From the NCBI GenBank assembly GCA_026395405.1, contig JAPLYU010000003.1:1-64000 (forward strand): a stretch of 64,000 nucleotides of DNA, in the 5' to 3' direction. Positions within the stretch are counted from its first letter, which is position 1. Every line of letters begins with the position of its first letter. Below, one piece after another: positions 1 to 17,643 of this stretch. A program made the position numbers and the translations under genes. The notes under the pieces are model-generated. The model had not been told where the DNA came from. It searched no databases and saw nothing but the letters and a program-made list of their open reading frames with translations. The stretch comes from Candidatus Saccharimonadota bacterium (GTDB lineage Bacteria > Patescibacteriota > Saccharimonadia > Saccharimonadales > Saccharimonadaceae).

Positions 1-985
<985 letters not shown>

Positions 986-13762: not shown

Positions 13763-15271
13763 ATGGTTTCCAGAATAATAACTGTTGCTCCTGTAGGTTT
13801 TGATGGATTTATTGTAGATGTTGAGGCTGATGCAACTAAATCATTACCGTCTTTACAGATTGTTGGACTTGGGAATAAGGCGATTGACGAGGCTAAAGAA
13901 CGCGTTCGCAGTGCCATCACCAACTCTCTTCTGGATTTTCCAAAAAAGCGAATCACGATCAATCTGGCACCCGCCGAGTTGCCCAAGGATGGTGCACACT
14001 ACGACCTACCGATATCCCTAGCAATCCTTTGTGTCAGTGGTCAAATATTTCAGTCAGAGCTAGATGGATCTGTTTTTGCCGGCGAACTTGCTCTTGACGG
14101 AACATTAAGACCAATTAAGGGTGCAATAAATATCGCACAAATGGCAAAAAAGGCTGGTTATAAGAAGATTTTTCTACCATTGCAAAACGTTGCTCAGGCC
14201 GGATTGATTAAGGATATTGATATTTTTGGAGTCGAATCAATTAAACAACTATTTTTACATCTTAAGGGTGAGGTTTTAATAACCCCAACTGCTCAATTCC
14301 ATGGGCAGATTTCTAATAGTGAGCCCCAGAAACCTCCATTCCTAGACGACGTGAAGGGTCAGGAACAAGCCAAACGCGCCCTAGTGATAGCAGCTGCAGG
14401 TCATCACAACATTCTCCTGTCGGGGACTCCAGGGTCTGGAAAAACGATGTTGGCAAAAGCTTTGTCTAACCTCCTGCCTGAACTTTCAACAGAAGAACAA
14501 ATAGCTGCAACTAAAATCCATAGTGTTGCAGGAAAAATAACCGGTGAAATAGTTACCATGCGGCCCTTTCGGTCACCTCACCACACAGCAAGCGTTATAT
14601 CGATTGTCGGCGGTGGAAGTCGACCCAAACCAGGCGAGATCAGCCTAGCGCATACTGGAGTATTGTTTCTTGATGAATTCCCAGAATATCCAAGAATCGT
14701 TCTTGAATCACTCAGACAACCAATCGAAGACAAAAAAATCGATGTAAGCCGTGCTAATGGTCACGTCACATACCCGGCTGATTTTATGCTAATTGCAACG
14801 ATGAACCCATGTCCGTGCGGCTATTTCGGCAGCAAAACGAAAGAATGTTCATGCACAAGTTCGCAAATTTTAGGATATCAAAAAAGACTTTCTGGACCCC
14901 TTCTTGATAGAATAGACATTTTTGTTGGGGTATCACAAGTGCCTAATGAGGCACTAATCAACTCAGATTCGTTGAGTATTTCGCAACACTTAACAGCTTC
15001 GGAAAGTATTAAACAAGCAAATATCATCCAAAATAAACGATACAATAGTAGTACTTTATACAACTCTTCACTATCTAACCGCGAGATAAAAAAGTATGCT
15101 GCCCTTTCTGATGATGTTAGAAAGTTGTTAGTTTCTGCGGCAAATCAATTAAAGCTAAGTTCGCGTGGCTATTTTAAAATCATAAAAATCGCACGTACAA
15201 TTGCAGATCTAGCTGGCGAAGAAAACATTAAATTCGAGCATATTAGTGAGGCACTGCAATATCGAGGTTAA
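13763..15271 (+). CDS. comM: YifB/ComM family AAA+ ATPase (Mg-chelatase-like)
   Basis: This 502-aa protein has the ComM layout. The N-terminal Lon-like fold is VDVEADATKSLPSLQIVGL with the PKKRITINLAPAELPKDG block. The AAA+ Mg-chelatase core has Walker A GTPGSGKTMLAKAL near residue 221, Walker B GVLFLDEFPEY near 298, and the cysteine cluster NPCPCGYFG...CSC near 352-370. The C-terminal Mg_chelatase_C ends in LSSRGYFKIIKIARTIADLAG. ComM is a hexameric branch-migration helicase that helps integrate DNA during natural transformation. With the type IV pilus in this window it supports competence, though that is inference. It is the first of a rightward gene run followed by infC. Confidence 0.95.
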   Translation: MVSRIITVAPVGFDGFIVDVEADATKSLPSLQIVGLGNKAIDEAKERVRSAITNSLLDFPKKRITINLAPAELPKDGAHYDLPISLAILCVSGQIFQSELDGSVFAGELALDGTLRPIKGAINIAQMAKKAGYKKIFLPLQNVAQAGLIKDIDIFGVESIKQLFLHLKGEVLITPTAQFHGQISNSEPQKPPFLDDVKGQEQAKRALVIAAAGHHNILLSGTPGSGKTMLAKALSNLLPELSTEEQIAATKIHSVAGKITGEIVTMRPFRSPHHTASVISIVGGGSRPKPGEISLAHTGVLFLDEFPEYPRIVLESLRQPIEDKKIDVSRANGHVTYPADFMLIATMNPCPCGYFGSKTKECSCTSSQILGYQKRLSGPLLDRIDIFVGVSQVPNEALINSDSLSISQHLTASESIKQANIIQNKRYNSSTLYNSSLSNREIKKYAALSDDVRKLLVSAANQLKLSSRGYFKIIKIARTIADLAGEENIKFEHISEALQYRG

Positions 15272-15276
15272 TATAC

Positions 15277-15305
15277 TTGAACTACTGTTGTATATCTGAT
15301 AGAAT
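15277..15305 (+). promoter_or_regulatory. infC operon promoter (TTGAAC-N17-TAGAAT)
   Basis: TTGAAC (15277-15282) and TAGAAT (15300-15305) with 17-bp spacing lie between comM and infC. The start would be near 15312, giving a leader of about 45 nt before the AUC codon. Confidence 0.65.
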
Positions 15306-15357
15306 AACTACCGAGTCAGTACTCAAAAAGTCATCATACCAACCAAGGAGATAAAAG

Positions 15358-15864
15358 ATCAGTAAATCAATTCGTATTAATCAAGAGATTAAGGCTGATG
15401 AATTACGTGTCATCGGTGTGGATGGTGACCAATTGGGGGTAATGAGCCTGTCCGAAGCACTGAAAATTGCTGAGGAAGCCGGAGTAGATTTGATAGAAAT
15501 ATCTCCGAACTCTAACCCGCCTGTTGCGAAAGTGGTTGATTGGGGCAAGTACCAATACCAAAAAATGAAAGAGCAACAGAAAAACCGTAAACATGCTAAG
15601 GCTGCTGAATTAAAGCAAATGCGGATGGGGCTAAAAATTGGATCGAATGATCTGGACATAAAAATTCGTAAAATACGCGAATTTTTGGGCGGTGGTCATA
15701 AGGTTAAAATCCTAATTTTTTTCAGAGGACGTGAAATGGCTCACCAAGAACTGGGTTATGAAATGATCAAAAGAATAATAGCCCAACTAGAAGAGGACGC
15801 GATTGTAGAACAGTCCCCTCAGATGGCTGGTCGGAATCTAAGTATAGTAATAAGGAGCAAATAA
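15358..15864 (+). CDS. infC: translation initiation factor IF-3, probable AUC start
   Basis: IF-3 prevents premature subunit joining and discriminates start codons. Both domains are present. The N-terminal part is INQEIKADELRVIGVDGDQLGVMSLSEAL, and the C-terminal part has FFRGREMAHQELG. The ORF track begins at a GTG (15418) inside the conserved N-terminal domain, which would delete its essential first strand. Upstream, the frame is open only back to a TAA at 15352, and no ATG, GTG or TTG occurs there. ATC at 15358 lies seven bases after an AAGGAG Shine-Dalgarno and is the best start, giving 168 aa (SKSIRINQEIKAD...). E. coli infC likewise uses a rare AUU for autoregulation. The stop overlaps the rpmI start as TAATG. 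Confidence 0.93.
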   Translation: MSKSIRINQEIKADELRVIGVDGDQLGVMSLSEALKIAEEAGVDLIEISPNSNPPVAKVVDWGKYQYQKMKEQQKNRKHAKAAELKQMRMGLKIGSNDLDIKIRKIREFLGGGHKVKILIFFRGREMAHQELGYEMIKRIIAQLEEDAIVEQSPQMAGRNLSIVIRSK

Positions 15865-16058
15865 TGCCAAAAATGAAAACCCATAAGGGTACAGCAAAAC
15901 GAATCAAGATTACAAGTACCGGGAAGTTAACTCGTCGCCGAGCTTTTGGCAATCATATGCTTGCCAAAAAAAGCAAAAGTCGAAAACGAGCAATTAATAC
16001 TACTGCTACAGTAACCGGATCAACCGCAAAAAACGTTAAAAGAGCGCTAGGCGTCTAA
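15864..16058 (+). CDS. rpmI: 50S ribosomal protein L35
   Basis: This 64-aa basic protein has the L35 pattern [22 protein letters not shown] and [13 protein letters not shown], which is normal length. It overlaps the infC stop by one base (TAATG), implying coupled translation, and precedes rplT by 13 bp with an AAAGGAG Shine-Dalgarno. The infC-rpmI-rplT order is the widespread bacterial operon. Confidence 0.97.
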
Positions 16059-16071
16059 AAGGAGAAATGAT

Positions 16072-16413
16072 ATGCGAGTAAAAAGAGGCGTTACAGCCAG
16101 TGCAAAGCATAAAAAAACCATTAAACTGGCCAAAGGTATGCAACATGACCGAACTAGGTCTTACCGACTTGCAAAGCAAGCCGTTATTAAGGCCCTATCT
16201 TATGCTTATCGTGATAGGCGCAATAAAAAACGCGACCTAAGAGCTTTGTGGATTACTAGAATTAATGCTGCTGCACGCGAGCTTGGAACTACCTATGGCA
16301 AACTAATGGCCAATTTGAAAGCCGCTAACATCGAGATTGACCGAAAAGTTCTATCCGAACTTGCAGTCAGCGAACCAAAGGCCTTTGCTGAAATAGTTAA
16401 ACAATCAAAATAG
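16072..16413 (+). CDS. rplT: 50S ribosomal protein L20
   Basis: At 113 aa this matches L20, an early 23S rRNA assembly protein. It has the [23 protein letters not shown] start, the [24 protein letters not shown] block, and a C-terminal globular part ([24 protein letters not shown]). It is the last gene of the infC operon and is followed by an intrinsic terminator. In other bacteria L20 represses its own operon by binding the leader; no such structure is evident here. Confidence 0.97.
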
Positions 16414-16426
16414 TATCATACTAAAA

Positions 16427-16459
16427 ACAACCACTTTCAAACTGAAATTGGTTGTTTTT
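16427..16459. terminator. bidirectional terminator between rplT and rnpB
   Basis: ACAACCA (16427-16433) pairs with TGGTTGT (16449-16455), extended by TTTC/GAAA across a mismatch, with T runs on both strands. It ends the infC operon on plus and RNase P RNA on minus. Confidence 0.8.
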
Positions 16460-16460
16460 A

Positions 16461-16804
16461 GTTGGCAGTTTATCGATAAGCCGGGTTCTGTCGTGGATGA
16501 TCATCTATCTAGTCTAGCAGTTGCCTACCATATCAAGCGGATATCGACCTGCAAGCGAGTCACTTTTTACGCAGATCTCCTTGCAGCAGACAGGGTTTAC
16601 CTTCACATCATGTCACCATGGTGTGCTGTGGGCTTTTACCCCACTCGTTTCACCTTTTCCCAATAAATTGGGTAGTTTTGTTTCTGTGGCACTTTCCCTA
16701 GGGTCGCCCCCGGTCGCCGTTAGCGACTGTCTTGCTCTGTGCTGCCCGGACTTTCCTCTCCATGCTTTCTAAAAAACATGGGGCGATCATCTAATAAGCT
16801 GCCG
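16461..16804 (-). ncRNA. rnpB: RNase P RNA component, class A
   Basis: RNase P RNA is the catalytic RNA that matures tRNA 5' ends. On the minus strand the conserved 5' block GAGGAAAGUCCGGGC lies near 16760-16745. The J/P11-P12 signature GUGAAACGAGUGGGGUAAAAG is near 16650-16630. The 3' block GACAGAACCCGGCUUAUCG lies near 16490-16472. P1 can be formed by GGCAGCUUAU at the 5' end (16803) and AUAAACUGCC at the 3' end (16464). About 344 nt, ordinary class A. The ORFs at 16448-16957 are shadows of this RNA. It is transcribed from an extended -10 just upstream. Confidence 0.95.
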
Positions 16805-16810
16805 AGGTTA

Positions 16811-16819
16811 ATTATACCA
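16811..16819 (-). promoter_or_regulatory. rnpB promoter, extended -10 TGGTATAAT
   Basis: TGGTATAATTAACC ends seven bases before the predicted 5' end of RNase P RNA. No -35 resembles the consensus. The core string is the same as at ssrA. Confidence 0.65.
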
Positions 16820-16824
16820 AAATA

Positions 16825-16972
16825 TCCCAGGGCTTACTATCGACGCAAGATATTCCCTACCGTAAAGGCAAGGTGGGTGCTCGCAAATCAACTCAACAGA
16901 GATGAATCATTAAAGCTCCCTATCTATATGATATTCAGGAAAATCATATACGCCTAGGCTTACCCTGGGACA
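16825..16972 (-). ncRNA. candidate 6S-like RNA upstream of rnpB
   Basis: A segment of about 148 nt is closed by a perfect 8-bp stem (UCCCAGGG at 16970-16963, CCCUGGGA at 16832-16825). Inside, AUAUGAU/AUCAUAU and CCUUGCC/GGUAGGG form hairpins. An extended -10 (TGTTATAAT, 16987-16979) lies seven bases before the predicted 5' end, directly after the stop codon of the M50 gene. The 3' half contains CACCUUG...UUGCGUCGAUAG, which resembles the CACCUUG...CUGCGGCGGCAUC part of E. coli 6S RNA. That resemblance is the reason for the 6S suggestion. It is shorter than typical 6S RNA (about 180-200 nt), so another structured RNA is possible. Confidence 0.45.
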
Positions 16973-16978
16973 CTATCT

Positions 16979-16987
16979 ATTATAACA
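16979..16987 (-). promoter_or_regulatory. extended -10 (TGTTATAAT) of the 6S-like RNA
   Basis: TG-T-TATAAT immediately follows the TAA stop of the M50 protease gene and lies seven to eight bases before the closing stem of the RNA. Confidence 0.55.
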
Positions 16988-16989
16988 TT

Positions 16990-17643
16990 TTAAACACCAA
17001 AGATTTTGGCGAAAAGCTGGACAAAAAACCCCATTGCACCTAATAAAAATGTACTGAATGCCGACCCGCCAATCAATATAAGAGCAAAAACGACGATAAT
17101 CCCAAAACGTTCCATTGACTCCATACCGCGACGTACAAAATCTGGCGCCAGTGCATATAAAACCCTCGAACCATCCAATGGCGGTATTGGGATCAGGTTG
17201 AAAATGAAAAAGCCCAGATTAACCATTACCCCAACCGTCAGAATAAGTCCAACTATGCCACTAGTAACCCCTGAGATGTTTACGGGCTGGCCTAGGTAGA
17301 CCGACAAACCATAGATGAAAAACGCTAATACTAGGTTTGTCAGAGGACCTGCTATTGCCAACAGGGCGGCTCCCCATTCATCCCAGCGGATATTATTCGG
17401 ATTATAGGGTACTGGTTTTGCAGCACCAAAAATAGGAGCACCTGAAATAGCTAGTAGTAACGGTAAAAGCACTGTCAAGAATGGATCAATGTGTTTAATT
17501 GGGTTTAATGACAATCGACCACTTAGCCTGGCGGTGTCATCACCCAACCAATATCCGGCATATGCGTGCATCGCTTCATGAAGGGTCATAGACACCAAAA
17601 CTACCCCCAAAACAACAATAATGTATGTAACATCAACATTCAT
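16990..17643 (-). CDS. site-2 protease family (M50) zinc metalloprotease
   Basis: This 217-aa integral membrane protease has a HEAMH zinc motif at residues 22-26 inside the first membrane helix, where HExxH is expected. The second family motif is PIPPLDGSRVLYAL near 150, supplying the third ligand aspartate. About six hydrophobic segments are seen. It belongs to the short, PDZ-less M50 branch seen in many bacteria and archaea, which may cut membrane-bound regulators; the substrate is unknown. It is monocistronic, divergent from rpmB, and its 3' end abuts the promoter of the 6S-like RNA. Confidence 0.9.
   Translation of the reverse strand: MNVDVTYIIVVLGVVLVSMTLHEAMHAYAGYWLGDDTARLSGRLSLNPIKHIDPFLTVLLPLLLAISGAPIFGAAKPVPYNPNNIRWDEWGAALLAIAGPLTNLVLAFFIYGLSVYLGQPVNISGVTSGIVGLILTVGVMVNLGFFIFNLIPIPPLDGSRVLYALAPDFVRRGMESMERFGIIVVFALILIGGSAFSTFLLGAMGFFVQLFAKIFGV

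Follow-up and report, generated by a model that had tools for sequence, protein, structure and literature searches.

Organization of the infC locus

The window, the whole 64,000-nucleotide stretch of Candidatus Saccharimonadota bacterium DNA analysed here, carries infC, the gene for IF-3, at 15358..15864 on the + strand, where it runs for 168 codons from an AUC start to a TAA stop. The assignment follows from a TIGR00168 match and from the presence of AUC, AUU or AUA (collectively AUH) at the same place in all 106 infC loci compared within the class. Upstream lies a comM/yifB-type AAA ATPase gene (13763..15271, +; TIGR00368, 556 bits). Downstream are rpmI (L35; 15864..16058, +), whose ATG overlaps the infC stop by one base, and rplT (L20; 16072..16413, +), which begins with ATG and was named from its translation and position, giving the infC–rpmI–rplT order of other bacteria.

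The 5′ end of infC (window positions 15340–15381) reads CAACC-AAGGAG-A-TAA-AAG-ATC, followed by AGT, AAA, TCA, ATT, CGT, ATT and AAT. The Shine–Dalgarno (SD) sequence AAGGAG (15345..15350, +) precedes the ATC start codon (15358..15360, +) with a 7-nt gap. AAGGAG matches the 16S tail ATTACCTCCTTT of the window genome, consistent with an SD role, and is predicted to pair with the 16S 3′ tail ...ATTACCTCCTTTCTAG; its AGGAG block is invariant in the leader alignment. An in-frame TAA (15352..15354, +) rules out a start further upstream, and between it and a GTG at 15418..15420 (+), the first in-frame NTG, the frame holds no ATG, GTG or TTG, so that ATC is the first sense codon at SD distance. A second AUH codon, ATT at 15370, follows four codons after ATC. 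A sequence-only reading had described this arrangement, with the in-frame TAA, the spacing behind AAGGAG, the later ATT and the lack of an NTG before the IF-3 N terminus, and it agrees with the sequence in every particular.

The infC product belongs to the IF-3 family, matching TIGR00168 over residues 3–165 of 168, from profile position 3 and well above the curated cut-off (192.6 bits against 60), and the N-terminal family PF05198 with 99.6 bits. Its residue 2 aligns with residue 1 of the 171-residue IF-3 chain 5me0_Y (SKSIRINQEI against SKDFIINEQI), which we take to be of Geobacillus origin, and alignment with the 180-residue IF-3 chain 8jsg_A begins at residue 4 of the product. These alignments bear out the earlier proposal that the IF-3 N terminus is encoded 5′ of the GTG at 15418.

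A probable infC promoter, proposed on the basis of conservation, occupies 15276..15305 (+) and comprises TTGAAC ... and an extended −10 element, TGATAGAAT; a CTTGAA-N-TATCTGGTAGAAT block recurs 5′ of infC in most Saccharibacteria. Within window positions 15276–15324, the promoter-like CTTGAA ... TATCTGGTAGAAT is followed by a GAGT-N4-RCTC motif common to most Saccharibacteria infC leaders, which could form a hairpin at the 5′ end of the mRNA (GAGU–ACUC). The leader was predicted to fold no better than shuffled sequences (z between −0.6 and 0), and no Rfam leader family, the L20 leader included, was found near infC at E ≤ 1 within 14900–17000. An L20-leader-regulated infC operon of the Bacillus type was rejected, as Rfam detected no L20 leader RNA upstream of infC. 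Elsewhere in this region, a weak 6S RNA match (16821–16973, −; 21.9 bits, E 0.086, below the gathering threshold) directly adjoins a class A RNase P RNA gene (16461–16802, −), and another weak 6S match occurs at the corresponding place in a relative (L053).

Start codons of infC across Saccharibacteria

The class-wide comparison comprised 106 distinct infC loci, made up of same-genus loci, 80 named loci (mostly titled Saccharibacteria) and further class members. Of these, 56 have ATC after the SD, 29 have ATA and 21 have ATT; none has ATG, GTG or TTG there. Within the genus, 23 infC loci were found among 28 genomes, with 22 ATC, one ATA and no ATG behind AGGAG. Two loci counted as ATC are unusual: L111 has a 12-nt gap after the SD, and L042 carries a TTG immediately 5′ of ATC, nearer to the SD than usual, which makes its start ambiguous. 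Most loci have AAGGAG, a near-perfect SD. The sequence-only reading had named an alignment of infC N termini and upstream sequences as the check on its proposal, and an AUG at the same place in relatives as the result that would overturn it; the alignment gives a shared N terminus with AUH in every locus, and the AUC reading survives.

On the IF-3 tree of the 106 loci, the third base of the start codon has switched between C, A and T on at least 22 occasions, and on none of them to G. Any of these start codons is expected to yield fMet, so an AUG would be protein-neutral; its absence points to selection on initiation itself. The neighbouring gene serves as a control: rpmI starts with ATG in 97 relatives, with GTG in 5 and with AUH in none.

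Genome background and initiation machinery

The window genome (855,423 bases, a draft of four contigs) was assembled from stretches for a scan of open reading frames. Among those of at least 100 codons genome-wide, only infC combines a strong SD and AUH with a first NTG as far as 20 codons on. The runner-up has an NTG 9 codons away and a weaker SD, and in the remaining cases AUH lies one or two positions 5′ of a normal ATG or GTG.

The 16S 3′ end of the window genome includes ATTACCTCCTTTCTAG, and the genome has an initiator tRNA with C1×A72; ordinary SD-led initiation is thus available. A contig break splits the 16S rRNA gene: the first part lies at window positions 142–976 (−), and the 3′ tail is close to where contig C4 ends. 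The initiator tRNA (L274, contig C4:136873–136948; compared with L275–L323) has U29–A41/G30–C40/G31–C39 rather than three consecutive G–C pairs, an arrangement reported to be strongly conserved across all domains (PMC7949028). U29–A41 is common to all 30 of the closest class homologues; G–C or A–U occupies 29–41 in the more distant class members that fall outside the order, as well as in G227, a member of the same family.

Proposed IF-3 autocontrol

IF-3 discriminates against start triplets without a 3′ G (PMC4611024). An AUU start in E. coli infC and an AUC start in Streptomyces infC are associated with self-repression by IF-3 (PMC5472188), the E. coli start and its translational autocontrol being attributed there to Butler et al. 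1986/1987. We consider it highly probable that infC of the window follows the same plan, with SD-led initiation by fMet-tRNA at AUC and with AUH kept for homeostatic autorepression by IF-3. The SD would direct fMet-tRNA initiation to the AUC codon, and AUC, AUU or AUA would be retained because IF-3 rejects start codons lacking a 3′ G. Plentiful free IF-3 would destabilize 30S complexes on infC mRNA; when it is scarce, more initiation would occur at the AUH codon, and the net effect would be homeostatic autorepression of the E. coli style.

Several observations fit such a loop: infC of the window has an AUH start with no NTG alternative, its AAGGAG matches the 16S tail, and AUG has been avoided over evolution where it would be protein-neutral, through all the third-base changes among the 106 loci. 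E. coli genetics and this avoidance of AUG together suggest that IF-3 lowers its own synthesis here. The earlier suggestion that E. coli-type autocontrol logic may be preserved in a CPR lineage is in keeping with all of the comparative evidence.

Alternative explanations

The most serious alternative, which we consider unlikely, is that AUH merely keeps infC translation constitutively low, with no feedback from IF-3. AUH codons initiate weakly in E. coli generally, and two fidelity residues of E. coli IF-3 are replaced in the window protein: in the chain alignment, Y75, K110 and R131 (E. coli numbering) are kept, but R99 is G and R129 is F, all five being residues that we take to be needed for codon discrimination. 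The replacements are a weak objection to autocontrol, because the Thermus chain differs at R99 and R129 too. Low output could be achieved by a weak SD or by UUG or GUG, yet most loci have a near-perfect SD and the start codon never ends in G. A strong SD joined to an IF-3-sensitive codon is better explained by regulation than by constitutively low output.

Translation beginning at GTG 15418, with the upstream homology a relic or untranslated, would accord with this being the first codon acceptable to a standard gene caller, but is very improbable. No SD precedes 15418, just 2 of the 106 class loci have GTG in its column, and the first downstream NTG in relatives is scattered from 4 to 102 codons past AUH, so that this rival start, raised by the sequence-only reading, is not conserved. 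The residues encoded upstream of 15418 are conserved in every relative as well as in the solved IF-3 structures; a start at GTG would remove the N-terminal strand that they share.

Equally hard to credit is that AUH is a conserved internal isoleucine of a longer protein starting further upstream. AUU, AUC and AUA are exactly the isoleucine codons, and conservation of AUH is therefore compatible with that reading and by itself no proof of a start. In the window, however, a TAA lies two codons 5′ of ATC, and only stop readthrough would save the longer protein; 84 of the 106 class loci lack any NTG from the upstream stop as far as AUH. The SD–AUH gap occupies all three reading registers (32, 23 and 19 class loci), which marks the letters upstream of AUH as non-coding, the supposed upstream codons being the SD read in three registers. 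The distance from AUH to the domain also varies, from −6 to −11 codons relative to a conserved Asn, and the registers and this shifting position together tie AUH to the SD rather than to an internal isoleucine. A sequencing or assembly error in a local AUG, conceivable in a draft of four contigs, has a negligible probability, because AUH stands in all 106 distinct loci and many independent assemblies agree. The comparisons accordingly support AUC 15358 as the infC start in the window Saccharibacterium.

infC in other Patescibacteria

Outside the class, 105 distinct Patescibacteria loci were scanned from the upstream stop (or 30 codons) to just before the conserved Asn. In 46 of them this stretch contains no ATG, GTG or TTG, and the start must lie either further upstream or at some other codon, frequently ATA, ATT or ATC and, in family f95, CTG. 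Some NTG is present in 58, including 28 with a single TTG and 14 with a single ATG, and one locus was left unjudged; the AUH trait is therefore not universal in the phylum. Start assignment outside the class is uncertain because many of these loci lack an SD.

Three loci of family f95 (L135, L146 and L187) have an apparent CTG start with a good SD and a stop codon directly upstream; this codon ends in G, unlike AUH. Six others (L163, L168, L180, L200, L153 and L207) have an apparent ATA or ATT start without an SD and a TTAA-rich stretch approximately 10 nt upstream, and such SD-less loci perhaps use short-leader or SD-independent initiation.

Comparison with known systems and significance

Among the closest known systems is E. 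coli infC, which shares the gene product, an AUH start after an SD and the infC–rpmI–rplT order; the start is AUU there and AUC in the window, where infC follows comM/yifB and has a probable promoter of its own, whereas E. coli infC is preceded by thrS. Streptomyces infC has the same ATC codon in the same gene and is likewise prone to misannotation (PMC5472188), but belongs to an unrelated high-GC lineage, whereas within the single class Saccharibacteria the codon has shifted among AUC, AUU and AUA. In Bacillus and Geobacillus, the collinearity of the mature N terminus of 5me0_Y with the window product indicates the same start place; the codon is AUU in B. subtilis (PMC1805508) as opposed to AUC, and Rfam detects no known leader RNA near infC of the window. 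Streptomyces sigR offers a further example of a non-canonical start as an IF-3-sensitive switch, in which a GTC start is repressed by IF-3 (PMC5472188), but its target is other than infC and there is no autoregulation.

Genes preferring non-AUG starts have been described (Gvozdjak & Samanta 2020, as cited in PMC9845219), and a non-AUG infC start is already of a known kind, from AUU in E. coli and B. subtilis and AUC in Streptomyces. What is new, judging from the sequences compared, is the uniform use of AUH for infC across Saccharibacteria, with AUA frequent, together with infC starts that must be other than NTG in 46 of the 105 remaining Patescibacteria loci. A search of the literature for work on Saccharibacteria or CPR start codons or initiator tRNA located nothing relevant.

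U29–A41 replaces the first of the three conserved G–C pairs, in whose selection IF-3 takes part. A wider scenario, possible but doubtful at present, is that Saccharibacteria combine an IF-3 loop in which AUH codons, AUA included, are interchangeable with the U29–A41 initiator tRNA, both perhaps being coupled adjustments of fidelity, and that an AUH infC start is perhaps ancestral in Patescibacteria and was repeatedly lost.

For annotation, gene callers restricted to ATG, GTG and TTG would truncate IF-3 class-wide in Saccharibacteria. The variation among AUC, AUU and AUA within one class provides a natural series on how IF-3 weighs the third base. Autocontrol of infC in Saccharibacteria would place a textbook form of autoregulation in an epibiotic, reduced lineage distant from the model species, a hint that this mechanism arose early and is not easily given up.
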